DNA from: Niallia alba
GTDB taxonomy: Bacteria > Bacillota > Bacilli > Bacillales > Cytobacillaceae
Reading direction: 5' to 3'
Assembly (NCBI RefSeq): GCF_012933555.1
Contig: NZ_JABBPK010000001.1
Span: 4,628,001-4,692,000, forward strand
DNA: 64,000 nt
Shown: in pieces, positions 1 to 62,752 of the stretch
Layout of the letters: each line of letters opens with the position of its first letter
Position numbering within the stretch: the stretch's first letter is position 1
Translations under genes and position numbers: made by a program
Notes under the pieces: model-generated
Told to the model about the DNA's origin: nothing
Database searches by the model: none
The model's input: the letters and a program-made list of their open reading frames with translations, nothing else

Positions 1-232
1 CTTTGGCTGATTTCCTCCCTAGTTTGGCTGATATATCCATACTTTGGCTGATTTCCTCTCTAGTTTGGCTGATATATCCATGCTTTGGCTGATTTCCTCT
101 CTAGTTTGGCTGATATATCCATGCTTTGGCTGATTTCCTCTCTAGTTTGGCTGATATATCCATGCTTTGGCTGATTTCCTCCCTAGTTTGGCTGATATAA
201 CAATGCTTTGGCTGATTTCCCCCATGCTCTAG
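1..232. repeat. 41-bp tandem array, TTTGGCTGA family
   Basis: Five to six copies of a 41-bp unit run from the window edge. Each unit holds two TTTGGCTGA cores, spaced alternately 21 and 20 bp, one followed by TTTCCTC and the other by TATATCC. The array probably extends beyond the left edge. The same family, in the opposite orientation and with the same 20/21 spacing, recurs at 36015-36365. It lies about 100 bp past the 3' end of the aldo/keto reductase gene. The remaining bases to 326 hold nothing recognisable. Confidence 0.9.
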
Positions 233-326
233 CTAATTCCCACCAAACTCCGCCCAAATACATAACCATTTTCCCGCGAATACCCTCAACTACCGCCCAA
301 TTCCCCACTCCTTAAGTCAGCCTACC

Positions 327-1169
327 TCAAAACTCCTCATAAACAGCTGGATCTTGATCGGCAATCCGGCCATCTGCACGAGTAAGACTAGAAATTTTGT
401 TCATTTCTTCTTCGGTCAGTGTAAAATCGAATATTTCTAAGTTTTCTCGTTGGCGTTGTGGGGAGCTTGATTTTGGAATTGGCAATGCTCCTAGTTGGGT
501 GTGCCATCTGAGGATGACTTGGGATATTGATTTTCCGTGTGCTTCTGCTATTTGTTGAATGGTTTCGTTTTCTAATACATTGTTTGCTCGGCCGAGTGGG
601 CTCCATGATTCGGTTACGATGCCGTTTTCTTTGTCGTAGGCTAGTTGTTCTTTTTGTGAAAAAAATGGGTGTAGTTCTACTTGGTTAATACTTGGCAGTA
701 CGCCAGTTTCTTTTTTCAAGCGTTCGAGATGCTCTGGTAGGAAATTGCATACGCCAATAGAGCGGATGAGACCCCATTTTTTTGCGTCAATTAATGCTTG
801 CCATGCTTCTACGTATAAATCTGTTTTGGGATTTGGCCAGTGAATAAGAAATAAGTCGTAATAATCTAACTTTGTGCGGTAAAGTGATTCTTGGATGGTG
901 TAGAGTGCTTTGTCGTACTGGTGGTGTCGACCTGGAAGTTTGGAAGTTATGAATAACTGTTCTCTGCTTACTGTGCTGCGGCGAACAGCTTCTCCTAGTG
1001 CTCCTTCGTTTTCGTAATTGAAAGCAGAATCTAGTAAACGATAGCCCGTATCAATCGCTGAGGTTATTGCCTGAACGCCAGACGCTCCTCGTAAATTATA
1101 GGTACCAAGGCCAATTGCAGGAATAACAAGACCATCATTAAGTGTGATTTGTGGAATCGTTGTAGACAT
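327..1169 (-). CDS. Aldo/keto reductase (YtbE/YvgN-like)
   Basis: A 280-residue NADPH-dependent carbonyl reductase of the aldo/keto reductase superfamily, cytoplasmic, resembling the 2,5-diketo-D-gluconate reductase and methylglyoxal reductase group of Bacillus. The catalytic tetrad is visible: D47, Y52, K77 in ITSK and H110 in LIHWPNP. The C-terminal cofactor region PKSSSPQRQREN is also present. The length is typical of the family. The ATG is preceded by a GGAGGAAAT ribosome binding site at good spacing. It appears to be a single-gene unit transcribed away from the AbrB-like gene. The physiological substrate cannot be read from sequence. Confidence 0.93.
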   Translation of the reverse strand: MSTTIPQITLNDGLVIPAIGLGTYNLRGASGVQAITSAIDTGYRLLDSAFNYENEGALGEAVRRSTVSREQLFITSKLPGRHHQYDKALYTIQESLYRTKLDYYDLFLIHWPNPKTDLYVEAWQALIDAKKWGLIRSIGVCNFLPEHLERLKKETGVLPSINQVELHPFFSQKEQLAYDKENGIVTESWSPLGRANNVLENETIQQIAEAHGKSISQVILRWHTQLGALPIPKSSSPQRQRENLEIFDFTLTEEEMNKISSLTRADGRIADQDPAVYEEF

Positions 1170-1360
1170 GAATGATTTCCTCCTTCTCTAAATTAGGAAA
1201 AGATTTCCTCATCTACAAAGTATAGAGGATATCTAGTAACAAATTCTAGTGATTTGCTCCATCTATTTACCTTTATTTCAAAATATTTTTCTTTCATTCC
1301 GTAATCGGTATGTTAAAATATAGGATATATATTAAAAAAATGTATGGGGAGGGAAAAAGT

Positions 1361-1651
1361 ATGAAAAGCACAGGAATTGTTCGAAAAGTAGATGAATTAG
1401 GACGTATTGTTATTCCAAGAGAATTGCGAAGAACATTAGGAATTGAAATTAAGGATCCTTTGGAAATTTTTGTCGAAGGGGAAAAAATCGTCTTTCAGAA
1501 GTATAAAGCGTTTGAAGAATGTGCGATTACTGGGGAAGTCTCACCCGATAACATCAGTTTTGGTAACGGAAAGCTTGTGTTAAGCAAGGAAGGCGCAGAA
1601 TTATTAATGAAAGAATTGGAGTCGGTCTTTGCAAATGATTCTCACAAGTAA
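1361..1651 (+). CDS. AbrB-family transition-state regulator
   Basis: A 96-residue DNA-binding protein of the AbrB/Abh family. The N-terminal swapped-hairpin domain is clear (MKSTGIVRKVDELGRIVIP, then ELRRTLGI), followed by the short C-terminal multimerisation region (ITGEVSPDN, LSKEGAELL). These proteins repress stationary-phase genes in Bacillus. I chose the ATG at 1361, preceded by GGGGAGGGAAAAAGT, rather than the upstream in-frame ATG at 1310 that lacks a ribosome binding site; the family alignment begins exactly there. AbrB and Abh are close paralogues and I cannot decide which this is. A rho-independent terminator follows. Confidence 0.93.
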   Translation: MKSTGIVRKVDELGRIVIPRELRRTLGIEIKDPLEIFVEGEKIVFQKYKAFEECAITGEVSPDNISFGNGKLVLSKEGAELLMKELESVFANDSHK

Positions 1652-1674
1652 ACGATATACGAATATTTATTATA

Positions 1675-1724
1675 GGACAATTCCATCATTTTTCACTCGA
1701 TAGATGGGATTGTCTTTTCTTTTT
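1675..1724 (+). terminator. Terminator after AbrB-like gene
   Basis: An inverted repeat (GGACAATTCCATC against GATGGGATTGTC, with G-U pairs) is followed by a T-rich tract, 24 bp after the stop codon. Confidence 0.8.
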
Positions 1725-1777
1725 GAGAATAAACACCTTGCGCCCATTTCCCCCATTACGAATGGTAGTCCCCCACC

Positions 1778-2956
1778 CTAAGAGGAACTGTTCCATTCTA
1801 CAACATTTCTGCCTGTTTTCTTTGCTTTATATAGCATTTGATCTGCTTCTTTAATTAACTCATCTAATGATTTGCCATCGGATAGACCTCCTAATCCAAT
1901 GGAAACGGTTACTTTTTCATCTGGCTGGGTTTCTTCTCCAAAAAATCGATAATCCTCCACATTTTTGCGAAATCGCTCAGCAATGTTTACAGCTGTTTGC
2001 ATATTCGTTATGTTTGTAAAACAAATAATAAATTCCTCTCCACCATATCGGGCAAAAACATCTTCTTTTCTCATAGAGTCATTTAATAGCTGGGCAATAG
2101 TGCGCAGAACTGCATCACCTGCTGGATGACCATGGGTATCGTTATATTTTTTAAAATAATCTACATCCATCATGGCGATGACAACAGGTACATTACTTCC
2201 CATTAATTTTTCAACATTTGTTCGAAAAAAACGCAGATTATATAAGTTGGTCATGCTATCATGCCTTGAATGATATTCTAGTTCTTTCCGAAATAATAGC
2301 TTTCTGCTTACATCATTTTGCATAAAAAAAATGCAAAGAACAGCAGCTATCTCAAATAATATCAGACAAATGACTGTAATAAACGATACATTGGTCGTCT
2401 GAAGAATAAGGAAAAATCTTATAACCTGATAACAGTTAAACGCTCTTAACATATGCCTAATATTTAGAATGGAATATGGCGGATTATAGCATTTCCTATT
2501 CTGAAAAAAAGCTCCTATTGCAAATGGAAGGATGATGGCCTGGAAAATTCCTTGTAAAACACTTGTTCCACCTAGATGATAACGATATAGAGCTGGTAAG
2601 AAAGTGGAAATTAATCCATATTTCCAGCCCAATAAATAAGAAATATAGAAAATAGGAACACCTCGTAAATCTAAGCGTACTTCCCCATATATCAGTGGCT
2701 CCCACATTACACCTATACTTAGTAGACTAACAACAATGGGTAAAGCCCACATATACTTGAGAATATTTTTATAACGCAATACAAGGTATTCTTTTAGCTG
2801 CAGTACCAAAAACATAAATGTAATTATTAATGTTATATTATCTAAAAAGGCCTTAAGCATTAATTTAATTTTCATCACCCTATTTTCTTGTTGTAATTCT
2901 TGCTGAAAAAATGGATTGTTAATAACTGTATTTTGTCTCATCTCTTGCGATTTCAT
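1778..2956 (-). CDS. Membrane diguanylate cyclase, 5TM-GGDEF
   Basis: A protein of up to 392 residues. Its N-terminal half has five or six hydrophobic segments with a 5TMR_LYT-like pattern (LDLRGVPIFYISYLLGWKYG). The C-terminal GGDEF domain carries the active-site motif RYGGEEF and the metal/substrate region MMDVDYFKKYND. It is predicted to make cyclic di-GMP from GTP at the membrane. The start is uncertain: the first ATG has no good ribosome binding site, and an internal ATG at 2875 (MKIKLMLKAF) follows AATAGGGTG. An HD-GYP protein that could degrade the same messenger lies 5 kb away. No adjacent gene suggests a specific target. Confidence 0.88.
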   Translation of the reverse strand: MKSQEMRQNTVINNPFFQQELQQENRVMKIKLMLKAFLDNITLIITFMFLVLQLKEYLVLRYKNILKYMWALPIVVSLLSIGVMWEPLIYGEVRLDLRGVPIFYISYLLGWKYGLISTFLPALYRYHLGGTSVLQGIFQAIILPFAIGAFFQNRKCYNPPYSILNIRHMLRAFNCYQVIRFFLILQTTNVSFITVICLILFEIAAVLCIFFMQNDVSRKLLFRKELEYHSRHDSMTNLYNLRFFRTNVEKLMGSNVPVVIAMMDVDYFKKYNDTHGHPAGDAVLRTIAQLLNDSMRKEDVFARYGGEEFIICFTNITNMQTAVNIAERFRKNVEDYRFFGEETQPDEKVTVSIGLGGLSDGKSLDELIKEADQMLYKAKKTGRNVVEWNSSS

Positions 2957-3035
2957 GTTAAGAAAAGGTTGTTTTCGTAAAGTTTGTGGCTATTTACCCG
3001 TAGCCTGCATAACTTCGCTTTCCGTGGGGAGAACT

Positions 3036-3096
3036 ATTTTTTTAGAAAACAGAAGGACACGCCATTTACCGAGTTAATTCGGCAAGGGCATGTCCC
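3036..3096 (-). terminator. Terminator overlapping the end of the FNR-like gene
   Basis: On the minus strand GGACATGCC pairs with GGCGTGTCC around an inner CCGAATTAACTCGG, followed by a T-rich stretch. The hairpin includes the stop codon of the regulator gene. Confidence 0.6.
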
Positions 3097-7791: not shown

Positions 7792-7926
7792 AAAGTGAAA
7801 CTTCCAGTAGCGGGGCTTCCGCTTCATCCCCACTGCTGTTTAGTGACCTTAACGGACAGTTAATCTCCCACCTATTTTCATAAGCTTGAGGTGGAAGTCT
7901 TACTGTCCGTTAAGAAGTGGGATAAA
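7792..7926 (+). repeat. 154-bp structured element, divergent copy
   Basis: A divergent, shortened copy of the element seen at 20974, 52382 and 54962. It begins AAAGTGAAACTTCC, holds a CAGTAGCGGGG/CCCCACTGCTG hairpin and an ACGGACAGT/ACTGTCCGT hairpin enclosing CCCACCT/AGGTGG, and ends AAGTGGGATAAAA. It lies between divergent genes, upstream of the HD-GYP gene. Confidence 0.85.
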
Positions 7927-12103: not shown

Positions 12104-12700
12104 AGGTATGGGGACTGAGATTTTATGAAGGTCATTTTTACTTAGGGTTGCCTTAAAAGTGGGGTTCATTTCTTTTATGAACGCCACTTTTTTCAAGGAT
12201 TGCCTTGAATCTGGTTTTCATTTTCTTGATGAACCCCACTTTTTTCGGAGGTTAGCTTAAAAGTGGGGTTCATTTCTTTTATGAACACCACTTTTTTCGA
12301 GGGTTGCCTTAAAAGTGGGGTTCATTTCTTTTATGAACGCCACTTTTTTCGAGGGTTGCCTTAAATCTGGCTTTCATTCCCTTGATGAACGCGACTTTCC
12401 TCGAAGGTTACCTTAAATCTGGCTTTCATTTCTTTAATGAACACCACTTTTTCGGGGATTACCTTGAATCTGGTTTTCATTTTCTTGATGAACCCCACTT
12501 TCTTCCGGGATTGCCTTAAAAGTGGCTTTCATTCCCTTGATGAACGCCACTTTCCTCGAAGGTTACCTTAAATCTGGCTTTCATTTCTTTTATGAACACC
12601 ACTTTTTCGGGGATTACCTTAAATCTGGCTTTCATTCCCTTGATGAACGCCACTTTCTTCCGGGATTACCTTAAAAGTGGCTTTCATCTCTAATGATCAC
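12104..12700. repeat. 52-bp tandem hairpin array
   Basis: About twelve units repeat with a period of 52 bp. ATGA cores fall at 12125, 12177, 12229, 12281, 12333, 12385 and 12437, then with slips of one or two bases up to 12693. Each unit has an imperfect inverted repeat, AAAGTGG-GTTCAT against ATGAAC-CCACTTT, separated by six to eight bases, then a variable TTCGAGGGTTGCCTT-type spacer. Two versions of the left arm occur: AAAAGTGG and AAATCTGG. The same family recurs at 51385-52015 and as a relic at 22935-23012. Bases 12701-12805 hold only an AT-rich possible promoter. Confidence 0.92.
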
Positions 12701-20973: not shown

Positions 20974-21118
20974 TAAAGTGAAACTTCCATCAGTGGGGAT
21001 TTTCCTTCCTCCCCCACTGATGGTTAGTTGAACCATTCGGACCTTTACGGACAGTTGATCTTCCTCGTATTCTTATAAGCTTACGGTTGAGTCTTACTGT
21101 CCGTTAAGAGTGGATAAA
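20974..21118 (+). repeat. 154-bp structured element, copy 2
   Basis: A good copy of the family. It begins AAAGTGAAACTTCCATCAG, has a CATCAGTGGGG/CCCCACTGATG hairpin, then TTACGGACAGT paired with ACTGTCCGTTAA, and ends AGAGTGGATAAA. It sits between the binding-protein and permease genes of the sugar importer, in the orientation opposite to their transcription. Confidence 0.9.
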
Positions 21119-22934: not shown

Positions 22935-23012
22935 ATTTGACCCCCTCGATGAACACCACTTTTTCACTTAACCATGCTTCCAATGGCTTTCATTCCTCTA
23001 ATAATCACCGCT
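22935..23012. repeat. Relic of the 52-bp hairpin array
   Basis: About one and a half degenerate units of the 52-bp family are visible: GATGAACACCACTTTTT, then AATGGCTTTCATTCCTCTAATAATCACCG-like sequence. They lie just past the 3' end of the GH113 gene. Confidence 0.6.
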
Positions 23013-28271: not shown

Positions 28272-28462
28272 AATGTATCCCTCTTCTCAAATTATTTAAC
28301 TGCTACTTTTTGAAAAAAAAATAACAAAGTGGACTAACGATTTATTCGAATTCAGGCAGATCATTTGGTGGTTAGTCCCACTTCGGCGGAACCGTGCCAG
28401 TTTGTTTGTGAGCTTAGCAGTTTTATATGCGCATTTTCCTAGTTTAATTGTAGGTTTGGCGC

Positions 28463-28620
28463 TTTTATTTGCGACTTTGGCACTTTTTCTTGCGACTTTC
28501 ACCACTTTACTTGCGACTCCGACACTTTACTTGCGACTTTCACCACTTTACTTGCGACTCCGGCACTTTTTCTTGCGACTTTCTCAACTTTACTTGCGAC
28601 TTCGGCACTTTTTCTTGCGA
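28463..28620. repeat. 21-bp tandem array, TTGCGACT family
   Basis: Eight copies of TTGCGA begin at 28469, 28490, 28511, 28531, 28552, 28573, 28594 and 28615, so the period is 21 bp with a single 20-bp step. Units read ACTTGCGACTTTCACCACTTT or ACTTGCGACTCCGGCACTTTT. Degenerate units may extend back to about 28400. The array abuts the stop codon of the ROK kinase gene. The gap from 28272 to 28400 shows nothing else. Confidence 0.92.
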
Positions 28621-34250: not shown

Positions 34251-34339
34251 TTATTTTAAAAATGTAAAACCAAAACTTTGGGTGATAGCGTTAACTCGCT
34301 GGTGTGGCTATTTTATTGGTGATTTTGCTCCCTATTACT

Positions 34340-34470
34340 TGCCGATTCCACGCTTTTATTTACGATATCAGCTTCTTTACTTGCGACTTCACCCCTTTTA
34401 CTTGCGACTCCCACCCTTTTACTTGCAACTTCCACTCTTTTTCTTGCGACTCCCACTCTTTTTCTTGCGG
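34340..34470. repeat. 21-bp tandem array, TTGCGACT family
   Basis: TTGCGA or close variants start at 34381, 34402, 34423, 34444 and 34465, an exact 21-bp period, with one or two degenerate units before. It lies between the divergent esterase operon and AraR-like gene. Confidence 0.88.
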
Positions 34471-35750: not shown

Positions 35751-35805
35751 CATCCTATAAAGACAACTAACCATCGATTTATATGTAAAAAATACAGAGG
35801 ATGCA

Positions 35806-35877
35806 ATGGTCAAAGTGAAAGAATTTTGGCAAAAGAAGAGTCGAACTGCGCTGAAGAATGAAGCAAAAGAGCTCTAG
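35806..35877 (+). other. Possible 23-codon frame
   Basis: A frame of 23 codons beginning MVKVKEFWQK and ending KNEAKEL follows AGAGG at five bases. It lies between the two hairpins after the AraR-like gene. It may be a remnant or chance; no family is recognised. Confidence 0.2.
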
Positions 35878-36014: not shown

Positions 36015-36365
36015 TTGGATATCAGCCAAAGTTTTATTTTTTCAGCTAAACTTCAGCTCATATCAGCCAATCTTTTGTTTTTTCAGCTAAACTTCAGCTC
36101 ATATCAGCCAATCTTTCGTTTTTTCAGCCAAACTTCAACTCTTATCAGCCAAACTTTTGTTTTTTCAGCTAAACCCATCACGATATCAGCCAATCTTTCG
36201 CTTTTTCAGCCAAACCCATCACGATATCAGCCAATCTTTCGCTTTTTCAGCCAATCCCATCACGATATCAGCCAATCTTTCGTTTTTTCAGCCAAACCCA
36301 TCACGATATCAGCCAATCTTTCGCTTTTTCAGCCAAACCCATCACGATATCAGCCAATCTCCTCC
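36015..36365. repeat. 41-bp tandem array, TTGGCTGA family (reverse)
   Basis: About eight units of 41 bp. CAGCCAA or CAGCTAA cores alternate at 20 and 21 bp (36023, 36043, 36064, 36084, 36105 and onward), one flanked by ATATCAGCC and the other by TTTTTCAGCC. This is the reverse-complement orientation of the array at 1-232. It ends just before the GH51 stop codon. The flanking bases 35940-36014 hold nothing else. Confidence 0.92.
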
Positions 36366-36373
36366 TCCCCCCA

Positions 36374-38790
<2,417 letters not shown>

Positions 38791-39720
38791 CTACTGTTCC
38801 TCCTTTCTGAACATCCCAAAGAACTTTAATTGAATAAAGGTAATGATAAAAGTGATCACCAATAATGTAATGCCCACCGCAGAGCCAAATCCTAAGTTAT
38901 TTTGTTCAATTCCCTTCTGATAAAGATAGCCAACGATTGTTAAACCAATATTATTGGGGGAGCGATTGCTTCCATATAACATATAGCTTTCTGCAAACAT
39001 GGAAAGTCCACCATAAATACTAATCGTAAAAACATAAATAGATATTGGCTTTAATAGAGGTAGGGTAATATGTGTGAATTTCTTCCAAGTAGATGCTCCA
39101 TCTACTTCTGCTGATTCGTAAAGTTCTTTTGGAATATTTTGCAGACCTGCTAAGAAATAAAGAATATTGATCCCCATCCACTTCCATGTAGCAAGCACAA
39201 CAAGCACAAACATACTTGTTCCAGCATAATTAAGCCAAGCTCTTGGCTCTAATCCAAAAGTAGAAAGAATGGAGTTTAATAGTGCTCCATCTTGGCCTCC
39301 AAAAATGAGACGAAAGATAATTCCAGCTACTACGACAGAGGTTAGCGCTGGTATAAATGTGACGGATCGGAAAAAATTTTTCGCAAACATTAATTTTGAG
39401 TTTAGTAGTACTGCCAATATCAATGGCAATGGGATAAGAATACAAAGAGTCAATAACGTATATATCGCGCTATTTTTTATTGCTGTTAGAAAGGTAGAAT
39501 TCCATAACCCTGCATAGTTTTCTATACCGATGAAAGTAGTTTGGCCTGGCAATACTTCTTGGAAACTCATAATAAAAGTAGATACTACCGGGTAGGCAAA
39601 AAAGATAGCAAAAGAAATAATAAAAGGTAGAACAAAAAAATATGGAGCTGCTTTTTGTGAATATAATAGATTAGTACGTCTCTTTTTCCCAAGCTGCTTT
39701 CCTATACTTCCCTTATCCAT
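38791..39720 (-). CDS. ABC permease, AraP-like
   Basis: A 309-residue MalF-type permease with a basic N-terminal tail, six predicted helices and the EAA loop LYESAEVDGASTWKKFTHITLPLLKP. It is tightly coupled to the AraQ-like gene downstream and 66 bp after the binding-protein gene. AGGAGG lies before the ATG. Substrate assignment to arabino-oligosaccharides rests on its neighbours. Confidence 0.92.
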   Translation of the reverse strand: MDKGSIGKQLGKKRRTNLLYSQKAAPYFFVLPFIISFAIFFAYPVVSTFIMSFQEVLPGQTTFIGIENYAGLWNSTFLTAIKNSAIYTLLTLCILIPLPLILAVLLNSKLMFAKNFFRSVTFIPALTSVVVAGIIFRLIFGGQDGALLNSILSTFGLEPRAWLNYAGTSMFVLVVLATWKWMGINILYFLAGLQNIPKELYESAEVDGASTWKKFTHITLPLLKPISIYVFTISIYGGLSMFAESYMLYGSNRSPNNIGLTIVGYLYQKGIEQNNLGFGSAVGITLLVITFIITFIQLKFFGMFRKEEQ

Positions 39721-39786
39721 GTACCCTCCTCCTATCTTTTTTTATAGGGAGTATTCAACAATCAAACACCCCCTCATTTGTAAAAT

Positions 39787-41088
39787 TTATTCTAATTCCT
39801 TCTGGGCCTCTTCTAGAACTTGCTGCGGATCCTTCCTATCAATCAGTGTTTGAAAGAGTATTGTTGTTTTAACCGCATTTGAAACGTCTGGTGTTTTTTC
39901 ACCAATATTTACTCCTTCGATTTCATCTTCTACCTCAAGTAATGTATCAAAAATATTCGGGCCAAAATATTCAGTAAACTGGTTGGATTCCTTCAACTCT
40001 GGTAATTCCCAAACGTCTGTGCGAATAGGATCAAATCCTAATAACTGCCAAATCTTGATATTCCCTTCTTTTGATAGCTTTGCATAGGCGAGGAATTTTT
40101 TCGCAAACTCAGGATGTTCTGATTGATTGGTTACTACTGTCCCTGTTCCACCCATTCCGGCTGATCTTGGAGAGCCTTCTTTCCATGATGGCATTGGTCT
40201 AATGATTATTTTCCCTTTCAAATCTGGCATATAATCTGTGAATCTTCCCATATACCACATTGGCATCCAAACAGAAGCAGCACCTCCATTATTCATAAAG
40301 CCATAATACTCTTCAGCATGGTGATCATTACCGGGTGCTGGAATAGCAATACCTTCTTTTACTAATTCTTGCTGGTATTTTAATACGTCGACAATGCGCG
40401 GATCAGTTAGATTGACGTTACCATTATGGTCTAATAAATCATCATTTCCCTCTAGTTGAGCAACCTGTGGCCAAAAGGACCATTGATCCTCCACATCAAG
40501 TGTTGTCATTGGTATACCTGTTTTCTCCACAACCATTTTTCCTGCTTCTTTAAAATCTTCCCATGTGACGATATCATCTGGATTTACACCGGCTTTATCC
40601 ATTATTTCTTTGTTATAATAAATAACAGCTGCCCCAACATGAAAGTCTATTCCATAGGTGACTCCATCCTTCGAATAAATATCTAGTCTAGATTGCACGA
40701 CATTTTCTCTTTCTGGATCGACCACATCATCCAATGGCAAAATCTGAGGTGTTCCTTTTAAAAAGTTACCAAATTTACTAATTTCTATATCGGAAATATC
40801 TGGAGCCCCTTTTCCTGATTGCAAGGCGACAAGTAATTTATTATGCAAGTCTTCATATGGATACGTATTTACCTTAATGCTGATTTGATCGTCTGGATTT
40901 TCTTCATTCCACATTTCCGCCATTTTTTCATAATACTGTCCATGCAATTCATTAAAGGTCCATAATTCTACTTTTGTCCCCTTTCCCTCATTGGAGTAGC
41001 CTGAGTTAGAACTATCCTTATTACAGCCAGCTAAAAATACGGAGAATACAAGCAGCATGACAAGAAAAGCAAACATACTCTTTTTCAT
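39787..41088 (-). CDS. Arabino-oligosaccharide-binding lipoprotein, AraN-like
   Basis: A 433-residue solute-binding protein with a lipoprotein signal peptide (lipobox LAGC, cysteine near residue 22) and the family 1 extracellular fold (KVELWTFNELHGQYYEKMAEMW in two strands and helices, WEDFKEAGKMVVEKTG). It is first in the AraN-AraP-AraQ-AbfA-like operon. A one-mismatch cre site lies about 140 bp upstream. Substrate is inferred from the GH51 partner. Confidence 0.9.
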   Translation of the reverse strand: MKKSMFAFLVMLLVFSVFLAGCNKDSSNSGYSNEGKGTKVELWTFNELHGQYYEKMAEMWNEENPDDQISIKVNTYPYEDLHNKLLVALQSGKGAPDISDIEISKFGNFLKGTPQILPLDDVVDPERENVVQSRLDIYSKDGVTYGIDFHVGAAVIYYNKEIMDKAGVNPDDIVTWEDFKEAGKMVVEKTGIPMTTLDVEDQWSFWPQVAQLEGNDDLLDHNGNVNLTDPRIVDVLKYQQELVKEGIAIPAPGNDHHAEEYYGFMNNGGAASVWMPMWYMGRFTDYMPDLKGKIIIRPMPSWKEGSPRSAGMGGTGTVVTNQSEHPEFAKKFLAYAKLSKEGNIKIWQLLGFDPIRTDVWELPELKESNQFTEYFGPNIFDTLLEVEDEIEGVNIGEKTPDVSNAVKTTILFQTLIDRKDPQQVLEEAQKELE

Positions 41089-41477
41089 TTTTTATCCCCT
41101 CTTAGTTTGTTTTTATGCTAACCCTTATTAGGATTTAAGCCATGGCTAAAAGCTGTTCTTTATTTTAGATTTGTTTAAATTGATTTACATGTTTACATAG
41201 TATTAACTAAATTAAAGTTTAATGAATACGTTTTCATTTTTCGTTCGATTGGCATAGAATTTATGTAATATTTTCATATTCTTCTTCATCCAACGTCTAT
41301 TCCTAGTTCCATAAGCTTGACCCTTTTCTTCATTTTTAAAAAATAGCTGTTCTTCTAAGTCAAAAGAACGAATTTATCTTTTTCCTTCTTTTTAATAAAA
41401 CCTAAAACATATGATTTAAAAAGAGGTTAATCCTTTTAAATCTAGCAAACTTCAAAATATAAAGGAGGTCATTTACA
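41089..41477. other. Divergent control region, arabinan operon and YesL gene
   Basis: A 389-bp AT-rich gap. It holds a cre-like site (41223-41236), a tandem TTTACATG/TTTACATA motif (41183-41199), and an AGCCATGGCT palindrome near 41139. The last two are candidate regulator sites. No coding frame is evident. Confidence 0.4.
41223..41236 (-). promoter_or_regulatory. Candidate cre site (CcpA)
   Basis: TGAATACGTTTTCA matches the CcpA consensus with one mismatch, upstream of the AraN-like gene. Confidence 0.6.
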
Positions 41478-42053
41478 ATGTTTACTAATCCTCTTATTAA
41501 TAAAATCTACTCCCTTTCCAATTGGATAGTAAAAATATGCTATGTGAACCTATTATGGGGGATCTTTATGCTAGTGGGATTGATTGTATTTGGGTTTTTC
41601 CCCGCTACGGTTGCGCTGTTTACTGTTTGTCGGAAGTGGATGTTGGGGGATCGCGATATCTCTATTTTTTCAACCTTTTGGAGTGCGTATAAAAAGGAAT
41701 TTATCCTGAGCAACCTTTTAGGAGCTCTTCTGCTTTTTATCGGGCTTGTCCTATATGCTGATTTACTAATGATTCAACAAACTACTATTATCGTTCTACA
41801 TTATTTGTATGTCCCGCTCCTTCTTATTTGTGGGTTATACCTATCTACTATCCTTTCTTTTTTTCCAATGTACGTTCATTATGATACTAAAGGGTTCCAG
41901 CTGATTAAAAATGCCTTTCTTATTGGCTTCATTGCACCTATCTCTTTTGTGAAGCATATCATCGGTCTTGGAATCATTAGCTATTTATTCATTACATTTC
42001 CTGGATCTGTTCTTCTCTTTGGCGGATGTATCCCAGCCCTTTACATGATGTGA
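41478..42053 (+). CDS. YesL-family (DUF624) membrane protein
   Basis: A 191-residue protein with five hydrophobic segments and the YesL/DUF624 pattern: NLLWGIFMLVGLIVFGFFPATVALFTVCRKW in the first two helices and DRDISIFSTFWSAYKKEF in the loop. These proteins accompany sugar ABC transporters and glycosidases in Firmicutes; their function is not known. AAAGGAGGTC precedes the ATG. It is divergent from the arabinan operon and followed by an ArsR-type regulator. Confidence 0.9.
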   Translation: MFTNPLINKIYSLSNWIVKICYVNLLWGIFMLVGLIVFGFFPATVALFTVCRKWMLGDRDISIFSTFWSAYKKEFILSNLLGALLLFIGLVLYADLLMIQQTTIIVLHYLYVPLLLICGLYLSTILSFFPMYVHYDTKGFQLIKNAFLIGFIAPISFVKHIIGLGIISYLFITFPGSVLLFGGCIPALYMM

Positions 42054-42125
42054 GTTGCCAACTCGGCCTTTACACAATACGAAAGGAAAAGAGCTATTCA
42101 ACAACAAACTTAAGGATGTGATGTC

Positions 42126-43037
42126 ATGATACATATTAAAGATTTACGTTCTGGTATTCCTATTTTCAAGGCATTAAGCTCTGAAATACGGGTTGAAATC
42201 CTTTCATTACTCACGAAAAATGGAAGTCTTAATTTAAATGAGATTGCTCAAAAATTAAACTTGTCCAATGGGGCTGTAACCATGCACATTAAAAAACTAG
42301 AAGAGAGCGGAATAATCGATGTATCAACGGCTGTTGGCAAACATGGTATTCAAAAAATTTGCTATTTAAATGAGAATCTACTTACAGTTGAGCTGCAAAA
42401 CAATAAAAGTGAAAATTATTATGAATATGAAATAAAGGTGGGGCATTATTGCGATTATTTGGCGGAAGCAACATGTGGACTTGCTACAAAGGACAGCATT
42501 ATTGGAGAATTTGATGATCCTCGCTATTTCGCAGATCCAGAACATATAAAAGCAGGCATCGTATGGTTAACGAAAGGCTTCTTAGAATACCGCATCCCCA
42601 ATTACTTAAAAAAAAATCAAGACTTTAAGGAAATCCAATTCATTTTTGAAATAGGCTCAGAGGCACCTTATTATAATAACAATTGGCCTTCTGACATCGT
42701 TTTTTCCTTAAATAATAAGGAGCTAGGGAAATGGACGTCGCCTGGAGACTTTGGGGGAGAAAAAGGAGTCTGTACTCCTGCATGGTGGCCACCCCATTTA
42801 AACCAATATGGCTTACTAAAATTATTGCGCATCAATGAACACGGCACCTTTATCGATGGCTGCCGCATCTCCAATGTCACCATTTCCGATATTATATTAG
42901 ATCAAAAATCAGACATTAAATTCCGCTTAGCAGTAGCCGATCAAGGAAACATCGGCGGACTTACCCTATACGGAAAAAACTTCGGCAATTACAATCAAGA
43001 CATCATTGCGCGAATTATGTATGAGATTGTGAGCTGA
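42126..43037 (+). CDS. ArsR-type regulator with long C-terminal domain
   Basis: A 303-residue protein. Residues 10-85 form a winged helix of the ArsR type (FKALSSEIRVEILSLLTKNGSLNLNEIAQKL, then SNGAVTMHIKKLEESGII). The remaining 215 residues are a beta-rich domain (YEYEIKVGHYCDYLAEATCGLA, FGGEKGVCTPAWWPPHLNQYG) with several aromatic residues and no metal motif. Similar regulators occur beside GH51 and related genes in Bacillus, where a sugar ligand is plausible. It probably controls the divergent arabinan operon. No established name is known to me. Confidence 0.8.
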   Translation: MIHIKDLRSGIPIFKALSSEIRVEILSLLTKNGSLNLNEIAQKLNLSNGAVTMHIKKLEESGIIDVSTAVGKHGIQKICYLNENLLTVELQNNKSENYYEYEIKVGHYCDYLAEATCGLATKDSIIGEFDDPRYFADPEHIKAGIVWLTKGFLEYRIPNYLKKNQDFKEIQFIFEIGSEAPYYNNNWPSDIVFSLNNKELGKWTSPGDFGGEKGVCTPAWWPPHLNQYGLLKLLRINEHGTFIDGCRISNVTISDIILDQKSDIKFRLAVADQGNIGGLTLYGKNFGNYNQDIIARIMYEIVS

Positions 43038-43106
43038 TTAGAAGATTAGTGAGCCCTAGTACGAGACTCCTAGAATGAAATTAACCTACCAGTTGAAAAG
43101 TACGTT

Positions 43107-43157
43107 AAAAAAAACACCTCTCAAATGCAGATAACTCTACATTCAAAAGGTGTTTTT
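43107..43157 (-). terminator. Terminator of gtaB
   Basis: On the minus strand AAAACACCT with TGAATGTAG pairs with CTGCATTTGA and AGGTGTTTTTTTT, directly after the stop codon. A tract on the other side makes it potentially bidirectional. Confidence 0.85.
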
Positions 43158-51384: not shown

Positions 51385-52015
51385 GCGAGATGAACGCTAC
51401 TTTTTCGTTTGATTCTCTGCTTTTTGGCGTTCATCTAAGCGATGAACACCACTTTTCTCCTGTTTCCTCTGCCTTTTGGCTTTCATCCACTTAATGAACG
51501 CCACCTTTCTACTGCCTCCTCTGCTTTTTGGCTTTCATCCACTCGATGAACACCACTTTTCTCCTGCTTTCTCAACTTTTTGGCGTTCATCCACTTAATG
51601 AACGCCACCTTTCTACTGCCTCCTCTGCTTTTTGGCTTTCATCCACTCGATGAACACCACTTTTCTCCTGTTTCCTCAACTTTTTGGCGTTCATCCACTT
51701 AATGAACGCCACTTTTCTCTTATCTCCTCTGCTTTTTGGCTTTCATCCACTCGATGAACACCACTTTTCTCCTGCTTCCTCTACTTTTCGGTTTTCATCC
51801 ACTTAATGAACGCCACTTTTCTCTTATCTCCTTTGCTTTTTGGTTTTCATCCACTTGATGAAAACCACTTTTCTCCTATCTCCTTTGCTTTTTGGCGTTC
51901 ATCCACTTGATGAACGCCACTTTTCTCCTGCCTCCTCTACTTTTGGCTTTCATTCACTTGATGAACACTACTTTTCTCCTGCCTCTTCTGCTTTTTGGTG
52001 TTCATCTTCACCCCC
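51385..52015. repeat. 52-bp tandem hairpin array, second locus
   Basis: Twelve units with ATGAAC (one ATGAAA) at 51390, 51442, 51494, 51546, 51598, 51650, 51702, 51754, 51806, 51858, 51910 and 51961: exactly 52 bp apart except the last step of 51. Each holds the hairpin GGCGTTCAT/ATGAACGCC or the variant GGCTTTCAT/ATGAACACC, followed by ACTTTTCTCCTG-like spacer. The two variants largely alternate, giving a 104-bp higher-order unit in places. It lies between the DUF2087 promoter and the broken HAD gene. Confidence 0.95.
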
Positions 52016-52102: not shown

Positions 52103-52830
52103 TTGAATATTCTTTGGGATTTTGATGGTACGTTATTTGATACATATCCTGCTTATACAGATATTCTTTATACAGTATTGGAAGAAAAGGTGGATAAGGC
52201 AGCTATTTATAAAGAGTTGAAAGTTTCTTTCTCCCATGCAATTGAGTATTTTCACTTAACAGAAGAGCAACGAAATGAGATTAAGCAGATGAATAAAGGA
52301 ATTGTTGTTAGTGAAGTGAGGCCTTTTCCAGGTGTAGAGGAAATTTTAAAGGCTGCGGAAACAAATGTGATTATGACACATAAAGTGAAACTTCCATCAG
52401 TGGGGGTTTCCTTCCTCCCCCACTGATGGTTAGTTGAACCAATCGGACCTTTACGGACAGTTGATCTCCCACCTAGCTTCCTCGTATTCCCATAAGCTTG
52501 AGGGGGGGAGTCTTACTGTCCGTTAAGAGTGGGACAAAAGTCATGAGGGTGTAATGAAGTTTTTGCGGTATTATGGATGGGAGAACTATTTTGCGGAAAT
52601 TGTTACTTTAGCGAATGGCTTTCCCAGAAAGCCGGCAGTAAATTTTTATCAATATTTACATACAAAATATTCAATTGACTTAGCCATTGGGGGATCGGGA
52701 ACTGGATTTAATTCCAGCAAAGGAATTAGGAATCCCCACCTGTATGTTCCAAAACCAGTGTGATTTTGCTGACTTTTCTCTCGCAAACTATACTGAATTT
52801 TTTACCGTATACCCGATGACAAAGGGGTGA
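52103..52830 (+). pseudogene. HAD-family phosphatase, doubly disrupted
   Basis: An N-terminal HAD motif (WDFDGTLFDTYPAY) and PGVEEILKAAETNVIMTHK run to 52381. The frame is then broken by a 154-bp insertion and resumes with SHEGVMKFLRYYGWENYF. A second lesion, one extra G in the G5 run at 52689-52693, shifts the frame; the corrected reading gives GDRELDLIPAKELGIP, the HAD motif IV, to a stop at 52830. Removing 154 bp and one base leaves 573 nt, exactly 191 codons. The intact gene would have resembled a phosphoglycolate phosphatase-like HAD hydrolase. SD sequence is GGAGGAG. Confidence 0.88.
52382..52535 (+). mobile_element. 154-bp structured element inserted in the HAD gene
   Basis: This copy interrupts the HAD pseudogene. 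It runs from AAAGTGAAACTTCC to AAGAGTGGGAC and is followed by AAAAGTCAT; removing 154 bp restores ACA CAT AAA AGT CAT GAG in frame. The flanks are consistent with a 3-bp AAA duplication. Two hairpins are strong: CATCAGTGGGGG/CCCCCACTGATG and TTACGGACAGT/ACTGTCCGTTAA. It has no coding capacity. Similar copies are at 7792, 20974 and 54962. Confidence 0.88.
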
Positions 52831-54961: not shown

Positions 54962-55116
54962 AAAGTGAAACTTCCATCAGTTGAGGGTTCCTTCATCCCC
55001 CACTTATGGTTAGTTGAACCAATCGGACCTTTACGGACAGTCGATCTCCCACCTTTCTTTCTCCTATTCTCTTAAGCCTAAGGGGGAGTCTTACTATCCG
55101 TAAAGAGTGGGATAAA
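54962..55116 (+). repeat. 154-bp structured element, copy 4
   Basis: A copy with slightly degraded first hairpin (CATCAGTTGAGGG/CCCCCACTTATG), then TTACGGACAGT and ACTATCCGTAA, ending AGAGTGGGATAAAA. It is in the divergent region between the membrane protein and CBO0543-type genes. Confidence 0.88.
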
Positions 55117-57438: not shown

Positions 57439-57445
57439 CTTTCTC

Positions 57446-59084: not shown

Positions 59085-59111
59085 TTTCTCCACCTCCAAG
59101 CTTCTATCTTT

Positions 59112-59177: not shown

Positions 59178-59202
59178 TTTTTTTAAGAAAACTTCTCTCG
59201 AT

Positions 59203-59430
59203 GGGGGTCTTACTACCAGTTAAAAGTGGGACAAAAAAATTTTTAGAAACTTACATTGAATTTTCATGCGTTGCTTGGAGTGGAAGGGGTGAGACTCCTG
59301 TGGGATTAGCGAGACAGCTTAGACCCTGCAGGCCAAAGGCAGACCGCGGCTAAGCGCGAGCCCCACGGAAAGCGAACCCCTGGAGCGGAAAGCAACATCC
59401 CTATTCAAAGGGACTAATAAATATACTATT
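59203..59430. repeat. Element fragment plus GC-rich palindromic module
   Basis: At 59203-59236 GGGGGTCTTACTACCAGTTA and AAAGTGGGACAAAA are the right end of the 154-bp family. Then 59265-59430 is a copy of the GC-rich module (GGGATTAGCGAGACAGCTTA, CCTGCAGGCC, GCGCGAGCCCCACGGAAAGC) ending CATCCCTATTCAAAGGGACTA. It is an inverted match of 49060-49225. Confidence 0.8.
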
Positions 59431-59486
59431 CAGAAGTTTGACTACAGTCTGAAATGTTCTGGCTAATCACCAGAACATTTTTTATC

Positions 59487-59951
59487 TTATTCTTCTGTTG
59501 TCATTATGAAAAATTCTACATCATTAGCATTCTTAAATGCAGAGATTCTGCGAAAACCAAACTTTTCATATAAAGCGATGGCTCGATTATTAAAAGTTGC
59601 AACGGTGAGACGCAAAGGATGTTCCGTCTCTATAGAATCGAGGATACATTGCATAAAGCTGGTTCCCTGACCTTGTCCGGTTAAATCAGGGCGCATGCCT
59701 AAACCAATATCAAGGTATCCTTCTGGGTATGCTTGAAAAAGGTAGCCGATCGGAACCTGGGCAGCATAGCCTGTGCAATAGAATCCCACTAACTCTCCAT
59801 TATGTTCAATTGCATAATAGGGATTTTCTGCGAACTCTTGCAACGATTCCTCTGTCACTTCACTATTATATAAATCGTAAGGAGCGGGATAAGTCCAGCT
59901 AAGAATTTCCCTCGTTGCTTGCTCTGTCATCTTTTGTATAGAAAAGTCCAT
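59487..59951 (-). CDS. GNAT-family N-acetyltransferase
   Basis: A 154-residue GNAT protein. The acetyl-CoA-binding motif lies in GLGMRPDLTGQGQGTSFMQCIL, with PLRLTVATFNNRAIALYEKFGF completing motif B. The N-terminal MDFSIQKMTEQATREILSW is typical of Bacillus members. The acceptor is unknown. The start overlaps the stop of the DUF2500 gene (TAATG), so they are translationally coupled. Confidence 0.9.
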   Translation of the reverse strand: MDFSIQKMTEQATREILSWTYPAPYDLYNSEVTEESLQEFAENPYYAIEHNGELVGFYCTGYAAQVPIGYLFQAYPEGYLDIGLGMRPDLTGQGQGTSFMQCILDSIETEHPLRLTVATFNNRAIALYEKFGFRRISAFKNANDVEFFIMTTEE

Positions 59952-60337
59952 TACCTATTCTCCTCTATGTGTTTATTTCGAGTGAACCCCAAATATCTCG
60001 TTCCTTGAAATTGCAGTTCCCCGCTGTCTCCTTCTACCAGCATGCCATATTCTTCTCCTTTTAGTTGAAATTCGGTGCGATCTCCACTGGGAAATTCAAA
60101 GGTTATATAATAGTTGCTATACGAGCTACTTTCCCCACCACCATGTACACTCGTTCTTTTCGTAACCACTTTAGCGGGTGTAGAAAGTAGTGGCTGCTGA
60201 TTGTTTTTATTCCATTTCATAATTGAACTGATGATAGCAAAAATAAAAAGACCAATAATAATAACAAATACCACAAAGATGAAAATCGGTCCAATCGTGA
60301 ACATGATATCATCCCCACCTGTATAAAAATCTTCCAT
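59951..60337 (-). CDS. DUF2500 membrane-anchored protein
   Basis: A 128-residue protein. A single membrane helix (about 15-37) is followed by a soluble beta domain with STPAKVVTKRTSVHGGGES, YYITFEFPSGDRTEFQLKGEEYG and GELQFQGTRYLGF, the DUF2500 pattern. Function is unknown. AGAAGGGAAC precedes the ATG at 60337. It is the first of two coupled genes and divergent from the DUF2089 operon. Confidence 0.88.
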   Translation of the reverse strand: MEDFYTGGDDIMFTIGPIFIFVVFVIIIGLFIFAIISSIMKWNKNNQQPLLSTPAKVVTKRTSVHGGGESSSYSNYYITFEFPSGDRTEFQLKGEEYGMLVEGDSGELQFQGTRYLGFTRNKHIEENR

Positions 60338-60581
60338 ATAAATTGTTCCCTTCTAAAAGTATTTTCGCCTTGATTTCCATATAGCCTTTATTACGCTCCC
60401 ATTTAGGAAAAAGTTTCAACTTGTAGCTGTTGATTTTCTACATTCTTTGTTATTTCAATAAATTTAAATGTAAAATTAAATAATCTTATATTTAAAATCT
60501 AATTTATTTATTTTTTCAACTATTAAATTGACTTTTTAATATAATTTATTAATCTAACATAGAAAGGAGGTAGGCATTAAT

Positions 60582-60968
60582 ATGAATTATCCAGTTATTA
60601 ATGATTGTCCTGTCTGTCATCACGAACTCCATGTAACAAAGCTAGAATGTAGTCATTGCCATACAACGATTGAAAATCGCTTTCATCTTTCCAAATGGCA
60701 TTCTTTTTCAGATGAGCAAATGCATTTTATTGAAACATTTATCCTTTCACGAGGAAGCATTAAAGAAGTAGAAAAAAAACTTGGTATTTCTTATCCAACT
60801 GTTCGAGGAAAGCTGGATGATATTATTCGGATTATGACAGGCGAAGGGGAAGAAACAGAGAGACAACCAAGTAAAATTAGTACGGAAAGAAAAGCGGATA
60901 TTCTAGAAAAGCTAGAAAATAATGAAATAACAGCAGAGGAAGCCATCCAATTAATGAAGAACATTTAA
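60582..60968 (+). CDS. DUF2089 zinc-ribbon regulator-like protein
   Basis: A 128-residue protein with an N-terminal zinc ribbon (CPVCHHEL, CSHCHTTI) and a helix-turn-helix (FILSRGSIKEVEKKLGISYPTVRGKLDDI), then a C-terminal SHOCT-like helix pair (ILEKLENNEITAEEAIQLMKN). DUF2089 proteins are putative transcription regulators. AGGAGGTAGG precedes the ATG. It starts a three-gene operon; the next protein begins with a similar helix pair. Confidence 0.9.
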   Translation: MNYPVINDCPVCHHELHVTKLECSHCHTTIENRFHLSKWHSFSDEQMHFIETFILSRGSIKEVEKKLGISYPTVRGKLDDIIRIMTGEGEETERQPSKISTERKADILEKLENNEITAEEAIQLMKNI

Positions 60969-60982
60969 GGAGGATATGAAAC

Positions 60983-61366
60983 ATGAATGATGAATTGAAA
61001 CGAATTTTAACAATGGTTGAAAACGGAAAACTAACATCTGATCAAGCAACGACACTTATCGATTCAATGGAGGAAAAAACGGAAAAGAAAACCTTGCTTG
61101 AAGATAGCCCTTATCTAAATCGCCTACTTAAAGTACGAATCCAATCGGAAACAAATGATAATATTAACGTTAATGTTCCAATTAGACTAGTAAAAGTACT
61201 GCTTCAAACCGGAATAGGTATCGCGGCAAAAATCCCCCAAGCCCAAACCTATACGGAAAATATCGATGTGGAATTATTATTAACTGCCATTGATAGCGAA
61301 TTAGTCGGCGAAATTGTTAATGCCAAATTAGCGAACGGTGACAGCATCAATGTGTATGTGGAATAG
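60983..61366 (+). CDS. SHOCT-like domain protein (YvlB-related)
   Basis: A 127-residue protein. The first 30 residues form a SHOCT-like helix pair (RILTMVENGKLTSDQATTLIDSM), as in Bacillus YvlB. The rest is a beta-rich segment (LLKVRIQSETNDNINVNVPIRLVKVLL, DVELLLTAIDSELVGEIVNAKL) of the type preceding adhesin-like DUF4097 regions. It is co-transcribed with the DUF2089 gene, which may regulate it. It is probably linked to envelope stress, by analogy only. Confidence 0.85.
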   Translation: MNDELKRILTMVENGKLTSDQATTLIDSMEEKTEKKTLLEDSPYLNRLLKVRIQSETNDNINVNVPIRLVKVLLQTGIGIAAKIPQAQTYTENIDVELLLTAIDSELVGEIVNAKLANGDSINVYVE

Positions 61367-61378
61367 TGGAGTGAAACT

Positions 61379-61663
61379 ATGGTAAAGGTAACTGTCCAGA
61401 CAGAAAAACATAAACGTTATTACATCATTCTCCCTACTTTTCTGTTAAGTACTTTTATTAATTTCGCCTTTTCAAAACGGTTATGGAAATTTATTCACAA
61501 CCGAACGAAGGAGCAAACAGTCGAGGCCATCTATAGGAACGCTAGTGATATAAAATTTTTATTAAAAATGTTGAGTAAAGAGCTTAAATACACTTCTCTG
61601 TCTGAGCCACTTGTTGATATTTGCCTAAAAGACGGAACTTATGTAAAGGTGACGATCACATGA
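61379..61663 (+). CDS. Hypothetical protein, last of DUF2089 operon
   Basis: A 94-residue basic protein beginning VKVTVQTEKHKRYYIILPTF and ending LVDICLKDGTYVKVTIT, with no membrane segment long enough for certainty (a short hydrophobic run at 16-29). Its first and last strands resemble those of the preceding protein (VRIQSET, DSINVYVE), hinting at a common fold. GTGGAGTG precedes the ATG. No function is known. Confidence 0.75.
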   Translation: MVKVTVQTEKHKRYYIILPTFLLSTFINFAFSKRLWKFIHNRTKEQTVEAIYRNASDIKFLLKMLSKELKYTSLSEPLVDICLKDGTYVKVTIT

Positions 61664-61744
61664 AATGTGCACTTCTCCTTAAAAAGAAAAAATCTAATGC
61701 TCGCAACACTAGATTTGTGTGAAACCTTTATTTGTTTTTAGCTA

Positions 61745-61792
61745 AAACACCTTTCCTACACTCGTTTGTTTAAGGGAAGGTGCTCTTTTCTT
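61745..61792 (+). terminator. Terminator downstream of the DUF2089 operon
   Basis: CACCTTTCC pairs with GGGAAGGTG and is followed by CTCTTTTCTT. It lies between convergent genes, 80 bp after the last stop codon. Confidence 0.7.
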
Positions 61793-61821
61793 ACTATAGC
61801 ACAGGTCGAAATATTTGTGAA

Positions 61822-62370
61822 TTACTCATGCGGTGCGCCAGGTGGATAGAAACTTGGCGGCATTTTAATCCATCCATGTTCCCTCATTCTCGTTTTAAGC
61901 TCCATCCCATAAATACTTTTTTCTGTATGGAAACGAATCCACATTAAGCCAACGTCGCTACGAACACTTTGCGTGATATTTGTGGAACACATAACAATAT
62001 TGCCTGTTACTTTGGCAGCTAGTAAGTTTGCTATTTCCATATCGGTAGATTTCGCCCCTAAAGGAATGGCATTTGGATCAGATTTTGGTTTTGATTCAGC
62101 AGAGCTGGAAAGAGGCACGCCTTCATTTATCATGAATTCCTCTAGGTTGTTTCGCTGTTCTGTTGCTAATTCTCTTGCTTCATTAATCAATTTAATTAAA
62201 ACATTGTCTGTTGTTGTATTAAGAGCCATTTCAAGTACAGGAATTTCATCCGCTATTGCAGCTTGATATGTCCAGCAACCCATCGCCTCTCCAATATGAA
62301 GTAGCGGCTTCGGTTCAGAGTCAAATCTCGTCTTAATATAGTCGAGAAATGCTTCCATTTTATGTGCCAT
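61822..62370 (-). CDS. DUF3231 protein
   Basis: A 182-residue protein of the DUF3231 family, related to spore coat-associated ferritin-like helical proteins. It shows HIGEAMGCWTYQAAI, LINEARELATEQRNNLEEFM and IPLGAKSTDMEIANLLAAKV; the C-terminus (MPPSFYPPGAPHE) is proline-rich. Family members are often doubled; this one has a single repeat. I chose ATG 62370 after AAGAGGTG. A spore or stress role is inferred. It is monocistronic. Confidence 0.85.
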   Translation of the reverse strand: MAHKMEAFLDYIKTRFDSEPKPLLHIGEAMGCWTYQAAIADEIPVLEMALNTTTDNVLIKLINEARELATEQRNNLEEFMINEGVPLSSSAESKPKSDPNAIPLGAKSTDMEIANLLAAKVTGNIVMCSTNITQSVRSDVGLMWIRFHTEKSIYGMELKTRMREHGWIKMPPSFYPPGAPHE

Positions 62371-62561
62371 GATGTACACCTCTTCGTGTTTTTACCTATA
62401 ATGTTTACAATTAAATGGAAGTTTATTCAGGATAAAACTATTTAGAGCAATCGATACGTAAAAAGGATATCTTTTTTTCGCACCTGATGGAGCACATTTT
62501 TAGATGTTAAGGCTAATAGCTGTTGACTCTGTTGATTTTATTTATAGTTTTGGAGCTTTAC

Positions 62562-62752
62562 TTGTGGCTTTTATTCTTTTACTTGCGACTTTCGCACTTT
62601 TACTTGCGACTTTCACCCTCTTACTTGCGACTCTCACCCTTTTACTTGCGACTTTCACCCGCTTACTTGCGACTTTCACCCGCTTACTTGCGACTCTCAC
62701 CCTTTTACTTGCGACTCTCACCCTTTTACTTGCGACTCTCTCCATCTCCAAC
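62562..62752. repeat. 21-bp tandem array, TTGCGACT family
   Basis: Eight TTGCGA cores at 62583, 62604, 62625, 62646, 62667, 62688, 62709 and 62730, exactly 21 bp apart. Units read TTTTACTTGCGACTCTCACCC or with GC at the start. The array ends 12 bp before the trpS stop codon. Bases 62380-62560 hold the DUF3231 promoter region and no clear feature. Confidence 0.95.

Follow-up and report, generated by a model that had tools for sequence, protein, structure and literature searches.

Intergenic tandem-repeat arrays of Niallia alba belong to the 20-21 nt and 52 nt satellite classes of Bacillus and show replication polarity

A 64,000 nt stretch of the Niallia alba chromosome (the window; G000:C1:4628001-4692000, within a contig of 5,233,187 bp) carries seven intergenic tandem-repeat arrays with units of 21, 41 or 52 bp. 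These arrays are members of the 20-21 nt and 52 nt satellite classes published for Bacillus (PMC8161180; Subirana & Messeguer 2021). Below, G000 denotes the window species and G007-G010 and G012 its congeners. Two properties appear to be new: the purine-rich strand of the arrays follows the direction of replication, and the sites that they occupy, which we call slots, are shared between species and can be taken by a different repeat family; in the open literature, we found neither replichore polarity nor the exchange of slots reported for them. The best explanation would be that the arrays are recognised by at least one DNA-binding protein with sequence specificity and are polarised by replication, a reading that we advance tentatively, at somewhat less than an even chance.

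The arrays, positioned with Tandem Repeats Finder (TRF), and one isolated core lie as follows in window coordinates:

Slot A, 1..220, plus strand: TTGGCTGA array of 41 bp units (20+21), 5.4 copies in the window, extending to the left.
Slot B, 12144..12691, plus strand: array of the 52 bp ATGAAC palindrome, 10.6 copies, convergent genes on either side.
Single core of the 52 bp family, 22948..22963 (contig position 4650948), plus strand: GATGAACACCACTTTT, a relic.
Slot C, 28455..28620, plus strand: TTGCGACT array of 21 bp units, 8 copies; a minus-strand gene has its 3' end 4 bp away.
Slot D, 34330..34469, plus strand: TTGCGACT array of 21 bp units, 6.7 copies, divergent genes on either side.
Slot E, 36018..36360, minus strand: TTGGCTGA array of 41 bp units, 8.4 copies, at a convergent site.
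Slot F, 51389..52006, plus strand: array of the 52 bp ATGAAC palindrome, 11.9 copies, divergent genes on either side.
Slot G, 62557..62737, plus strand: TTGCGACT array of 21 bp units, 8.6 copies; a minus-strand gene has its 3' end 27 bp away.

The first-pass annotation of this DNA had described three families at 21, 41 (20+21) and 52 bp, at three, two and two loci, and all seven arrays are present. Their cores occur far more often than in shuffled sequence (TTGCGACT, 18 matches against a shuffle mean of 1.4; TTGGCTGA, 25 against 2.4; GAACGCC, 16 against 3.2), the observed number being reached in 0 of 100 shuffles each time. The relic that it had assigned to the GAACGCC hairpin family is probably the lone core at 22948. 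Each window array contains 5.4 to 11.9 units, made of a short core and a spacer that, by eye, is mostly pyrimidine-rich on the plus strand, and the array at the left edge runs on beyond the window (matches at contig positions 4627453-4628097). A CRISPR (clustered regularly interspaced short palindromic repeats) locus was rejected since the spacers are nearly alike from unit to unit within each array. An origin from plasmids or phages was likewise rejected, blastn giving no match to plasmids or phages for the 51389 array and none to plasmids for the 36018 array.

The published Bacillus repeats are noncoding and 20-21 or 52 nt long, with relatives of 40-41 nt; they form several families per genome, with short characteristic sequences specific to a clade (PMC8161180). 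The arrays described here resemble them in unit length, in having at least four units of constant length, in noncoding position, in the multiplicity of families and in clade-specific short sequences. The suggestion of a class of bacterial satellite DNA was right, and such a class, with these two unit lengths, was already on record for Bacillus. The same study noted that 20-21 nt makes two helical turns and discussed nucleoid-protein and RNA roles; replication strand, gene 3' ends, the exchange of families at slots and arm covariation, all considered here, are not among its subjects. In our genome collection, TTGGCTGA core pairs are present in 5 of 13 congeneric genomes (463, 637, 144, 70 and 313 pairs) and in 1 of 48 other genomes, with a single pair.

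The same lengths recur along the chromosome. Our sample comprised 99 stretches of 20 kb (about one per 52 kb) plus the window, that is 2.04 of 5.23 Mb (39%), from which TRF arrays of at least 2.9 copies (about 60 bp or more) were taken. The 38 arrays have periods of 18 (1), 20-21 (7), 27 (1), 30 (1), 41 (11), 52 (12) and 151-155 bp (5). The 30 with a period of 20/21, 41 or 52 bp form the set analysed below, eight being left out (those of 18, 27 and 30 bp, which lie in predicted genes, and the five of 151-155 bp); the 1.98 Mb sampled outside the window contain 23 such arrays, which extrapolates to about 60 on the whole chromosome. Several families share each length (TTGGCTGA and TTGCGACT at 20-21 bp, ATGAAC and GGGCTC-type at 52 bp), so that the sharing of lengths by unrelated families, noticed first in the window, is borne out over the sampled chromosome for two lengths. 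The period distribution, which the first-pass annotation had expected to peak at helical multiples, shows the excess at 20/21, 41 and 52 bp, but no array at 31 or 62-63 bp was found in the 39% sample, which argues for two preferred lengths and against a general helical rule. Nor do these lengths look like the general outcome of tandem duplication in this genome. The 76 smaller TRF clusters comprise 45 in coding sequence, 29 noncoding ones outside the families and 2 family members that were set apart; the 29 have scattered periods with no clustering at 20-21 or 52 bp, even though 797333 and 1307706, of 52 bp and resembling a second 52 bp family, were retained among them. A scan of the genome collection for TTGCGACT pairs returned at least 120 stretches; of 90 arrays in these, 38 have a period of 21 bp and 27 one of 7 bp, figures that are not used as evidence on periods because the pattern itself biases them.

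Within arrays, the distance from core to core is almost invariant. In the G000 sample and the G007 arrays together, the spacing of TTGGCTGA cores is 20 (125), 21 (141), 41 (11), 42 (1), 43 (1) or 61 bp (1), that of TTGCGACT 20 (6), 21 (33) or 42 bp (2), and that of the 52 bp core, searched as ATGAAM[ACG]CC, 51 (5), 52 (168), 53 (5), 104 (11) or 156 bp (1). What is conserved is the core (TTGGCTGA, ACTTGCGACT or the palindrome TTCAT-N7-ATGAA) and the length of the spacer; spacer sequence is free, and varies from array to array and from species to species. This combination fits recognition at the level of DNA. The 52 bp palindrome points the same way. In 54 units, recognised by a pattern that takes only intact TTCAT, ATGAA, GG and CC, the half-sites are always separated by 7 bases (54/54), loops of 6-9 having been permitted. 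Standard pairs link arm positions 4 and 7' in 18 of 54 units (G.A 21, T.C 15, G-C 11, T-A 7), against about 27 expected by hand calculation from independent arms, and positions 3 and 8' in 44 of 54 (T.G wobble 33), against about 46. The arms do not covary, which led us to reject an RNA hairpin or cruciform constraint on the unit and favours DNA-level recognition; judged from these sequences, the two arms seem to conform each to a half-site consensus of its own, as in a dimeric protein site.

Based on this, we propose that the cores are putative binding sites of at least one sequence-specific protein. Binding would depend on a large number of regularly spaced sites; lone cores would then have no role, and the period would be kept while the spacer sequence drifts freely; polarity would be selected if an array must face the fork, or a head-on RNA polymerase, in a given direction. 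In its favour are the two lengths shared by unrelated families, unlike the 29 small duplications, the near-invariant core spacing beside differing spacers, the abundance of the TTGGCTGA core pair in five congeners and the behaviour of the palindrome arms, together with the slots shared beyond chance and the polarity above that of fourfold sites and other intergenic DNA (both below). Nucleoid-protein binding or topology control, raised in the first-pass annotation, is a candidate role. A precedent for the layout is sopC, the centromere of the F plasmid, in which direct repeats about four turns long each hold a short site for a DNA-binding protein. Unlike the dozens of chromosomal loci described here, which have no known binder, sopC is one plasmid locus beside the gene of its binder.

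The arrays are polarised relative to replication. GC skew places the origin close to position 0 and the terminus at about 2.73 Mb, its sign changing from the stretch at 2.704 Mb to that at 2.756 Mb. On this basis, the mean purine fraction of the leading strand is 0.654 in the 30 arrays and 0.527 in 792 array-free intergenic regions (Mann-Whitney p 2e-14). It exceeds 0.5 in 28 of the 30 arrays and 0.6 in 24, a level surpassed by 2.9% of the control regions, and the arrays also exceed fourfold sites in leading (0.547) and lagging genes (0.516). The polarity extends to relatives: 9 of 10 arrays of these periods share it in G007 (one array of 18 bp and one of 276 bp left out, coding status unfiltered), as do 8 of 8 in 60 kb of G008, where the leading strand was taken from local skew. 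The cores of two families are themselves oriented with the fork. This holds for the 52 bp core at 20 of 22 G000 loci among the first-listed of 128 matches (2749211 lying near the terminus) and at 17 of 17 placeable loci in G007 (1394991, at the skew sign change, uncounted), and TTGCGACT at 8 of 8 loci in G000. At 3156361, the core alone is reversed and the leading-strand purine fraction is 0.61, hence it is no exception in composition. We also considered GAGAAGGG, a polarity motif of DNA translocases (SRS type), and regard a translocase signal as improbable since 2 copies in 10.4 kb of arrays are too few for 30 arrays; its density is 0.19 per kb in arrays and 0.024 per kb overall, a comparison of two copies that is uncorrected for composition.

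Transcription direction was rejected as the cause of this polarity. Seven arrays have a lagging-strand gene as their nearest 3'-abutting neighbour, and all seven nonetheless carry their purines mainly on the leading strand; the same is true of 19 of 21 beside leading-strand genes, and the two divergent sites of the window reach 0.75 and 0.73. A role at the level of RNA is a different matter, with the arrays acting most plausibly as polar terminators or Rho-loading stretches that stop head-on transcription, or as the small RNAs suggested by Subirana & Messeguer. The head-on strand of the arrays is rich in C (0.283) and poor in G (0.135). Rho prefers RNA of this kind, and the persistence of fork polarity beside lagging-strand genes and at divergent sites would suit such a role. 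The 52 nt repeats of Bacillus coagulans are, moreover, transcribed (PMC8625621). An RNA role nevertheless leaves the 20-21 and 52 nt periods without a reason, stem pairing is not maintained, and an Rfam scan of the window gave 0 families at the gathering threshold; overall, we consider it improbable.

With respect to genes, whose boundaries come from a home-made caller of open reading frames (ORFs), 28 of the 30 arrays lie outside predictions, and the other two (1059515 and 3958174) overlap low-scoring predicted ORFs. The first-pass annotation had stated that nearly all arrays abut gene 3' ends. This overstates the window, where 5 of 7 arrays face at least one 3' end and the arrays at 34330 and 51389 stand between divergent genes, yet the tendency holds in the chromosome sample: 28 of 30 sampled arrays face at least one 3' end, both exceptions being these same divergent sites. 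The ends facing arrays are 38 3' and 18 5', against 1677:1685 for all ends in the sample, and the preference for 3' ends is real.

The slots themselves are shared between species beyond chance. For all seven window sites, an array or a remnant stands at the corresponding place by synteny in G007, G008 or both. At slot A, TTGGCTGA arrays occupy the orthologous place in G007 (3416283) and G008 (4228926); slot C has arrays or degenerate TTGCG units in G007, G008 and G009; slot D has a 21 bp array in G008 (4243332); slot F has a 52 bp array in G007 (3452256) and a short remnant in G008 (4256876); and slot G holds 3 copies in G007 and about 25 in G008. In an interval test between anchor genes, arrays were found against G007 in both species in 3 intervals, only here in 2, only there in 0 and in neither in 28 (Fisher p 0.0018), with slots C and D scored empty in G007 for want of a TRF array, though degenerate TTGCG units are visible at C, and with slots A and E lacking a usable anchor pair. 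Against G008, the counts are 4, 1, 0 and 24 (p 0.0002).

At two of the seven slots, B and E, a relative has a different family. Slot B, which holds the ATGAAC palindrome in the window, is occupied by TTGGCTGA in G007 and likewise in G012, where contig ends interrupt it, by a different 52 bp family next to one ATGAAC-type unit in G008, and by three ATGAA-type units in G010. Slot E holds TTGGCTGA in G000 and G007 and a TTTATTGTCC-type array of 21/42 bp in G008; its position is fixed by a conserved left flank of 108 bp (35756-35863) that adjoins the array in G007 and G008, and its surroundings differ between species by inserted segments. Slot E stands at the left edge of a segment of about 6.7 kb (window 36374-43107, first gene arabinosylfuranosidase-like) for which blastn shows no long match in the G007 and G008 stretches aligned with the window. 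Common descent accounts for shared slots, but descent alone does not explain the exchange of families. A bolder possibility, which we regard as doubtful, is that slots keep a job while their sequence is exchangeable, so that unrelated families of 20-21 and 52 bp would replace each other at a given site and be rebuilt with the same fork polarity.

Inherited slots are equally what one would see if the arrays were neutral satellites without function. These would arise through replication slippage or unequal exchange where the DNA downstream of genes tolerates them, and their polarity would come from an amplification, coupled to replication, that prefers units with purines concentrated on one strand. 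We take this as a serious rival, unlikely as a whole but to be kept in mind, and several observations weigh against our own reading, some of them in its favour. Polarity is also present in the three coding tandem arrays (0.71-0.77), in the 45 small coding duplications (mean leading-strand purine 0.606, 32 above 0.5) and, weakly, in the 29 noncoding ones (mean 0.561, 21 above 0.5), such that some of the effect may reflect a bias common to tandem duplications at large. Three arrays depart from it in composition (3241178 at 0.29 and 2663222 at 0.49 in G000, 3425080 at 0.37 in G007). The TTGGCTGA core is oriented with the leading strand in 8 arrays and with the lagging strand in 5; the spacers of these arrays have leading-strand purine above 0.5 in 12 of 13, the remaining one being at 0.50. 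Cores outside arrays occur at chance frequency (TTGGCTGA 68 against 67.5 expected, TTGCGACT 29 against 29.8), which led us to reject avoidance of lone cores and fits cooperative binding as well as it fits no function. This sequence analysis found no protein that binds the cores. Finally, the mean pitches differ between families (20.5/2 = 10.25, 21/2 = 10.5 and 52/5 = 10.4 bp per turn by arithmetic), so that no single helical repeat fits all three and, in long arrays, at least one family must have cores that shift gradually around the helix. The idea that every core lies on the same helical face would not hold for all three families there, and the reading as helical multiples is partly right: periods of 2, 4 (as 2+2) and 5 turns were found, and those of 3 and 6 turns were not seen.

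Other observations are harder to reconcile with neutrality. Small duplications do not cluster at the array lengths, the two of 52 bp among the 29 resembling family members; core spacing is fixed although spacers are unrelated; families are exchanged at the same slots; and array length is uncorrelated with polarity (Spearman -0.13, p 0.49). Judged from the variants within 40 arrays, purines would settle at a fraction of 0.57 at equilibrium (bootstrap 0.49-0.65), the consensus having 0.67 (0.61-0.71), a spectrum that leans against plain mutation bias, yet the intervals overlap, as a neutral origin would allow. The closest precedent that we found for the strand bias, also compatible with neutrality, is in the tandem repeats of Borgs, whose composition is biased by strand in each replichore (A 48.4% in repeat units and 38.4% on the coding strand; PMC9879509); these differ from the arrays in belonging to archaeal linear elements, in units called perfect and in a bias to A alone.

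A last rival would have the arrays be mobile repeats akin to repetitive extragenic palindromic (REP) sequences, spread by a Y1 (HuH) transposase on the single-stranded template of the lagging strand and oriented to the fork by this route. Y1 transposases do use that template (PMC6006769), and the fork orientation of the 52 bp and TTGCGACT cores would follow. A dispersed element of about 152 bp, starting with TTTATCCCACTCTTAACGG, is oriented with the replication fork at 67 of its 77 loci in the sample of this same genome; at five places, 3-6 copies of it stand head to tail as an array. The elements concerned are:

Element of about 152 bp, four copies in the window, all on the minus strand: 7795-7926, 20978-21118, 52385-52538 and 54965-55116.
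RAYT (REP-associated tyrosine transposase)-like Y1 transposase gene, G000:C1:4586050-4586620: 51 bits to PF01797 and 77.5 bits to REP_Tyr_transpos, whose cut-off is 80.

This divergent transposase (47-64 bits to PF01797), near the RAYT group, is found in six congeners (G000, G007-G010 and G012) and in 0 of 7 others, and these six are genomes in which the repeat families were found. Sequence identity to the window species is, however, higher in the six than in the remaining seven, in which only the families found here were searched for, and the co-occurrence may be a matter of descent. The fit is also poor in that TTGGCTGA cores are unoriented, that the TTGGCTGA and TTGCGACT units are non-palindromic, and that no array lies in the 2.6 kb around the one inspected of two such genes. 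REPs are palindromes of 20-40 bp tagged GTAG or CGTC (PMC3733652); with REPs and bacterial interspersed mosaic elements, the arrays share an intergenic position between tandem or convergent genes, downstream of coding regions, and a RAYT-like gene in the genome, and they differ in that two of three families are not palindromes and that, by eye, no such tag is seen in the 52 bp units. We find spread by a transposase improbable.

The element of about 152 bp could still be a possible vehicle for arrays, to judge from one locus. The 52 bp array at 3241178, of reversed polarity, directly follows a match to it and by eye is followed by sequence like the end of the element; at G000:C1:3241051-3241560, the array thus seems to sit inside a copy in the minority orientation. 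In its TTTAT motif and size, the element (not the arrays of 21, 41 and 52 bp) recalls, by description only, the bcr1-type miniature inverted-repeat transposable elements of the Bacillus cereus group (PMC6542083). The RAYT-like gene at 4586050-4586620 adjoins a Mg-chelatase-like gene (named by eye), and a second Y1 transposase match lies at 4566123-4566446 in G000.

Outside the genus, Gracilibacillus oryzae strain TD8 has TTGCGACT-type 21 bp arrays of 11-31 copies (stretches L089, L179, L180, L184 and L193), in L184 with two 52 bp arrays on the same contig. On the strand given by local skew, the skews being mostly too weak to assign one, the purine fraction is 0.78-0.79 in four of the five 21 bp arrays and 0.59 in that of L184; the 52 bp arrays have 0.35 and 0.64.

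In conclusion, the 20-21 and 52 nt repeats of Bacillus have so far been described without an explanation, and the features reported here (spacer polarity, slot exchange and the absence of arm covariation) help to separate the candidates, namely a DNA binder, control of head-on transcription and replication-coupled amplification. If slots do keep their job while their sequence is exchanged, the information in these satellites would lie in period and fork polarity, not in sequence, and their replacement would be a bacterial counterpart of the turnover of satellites in eukaryotes.

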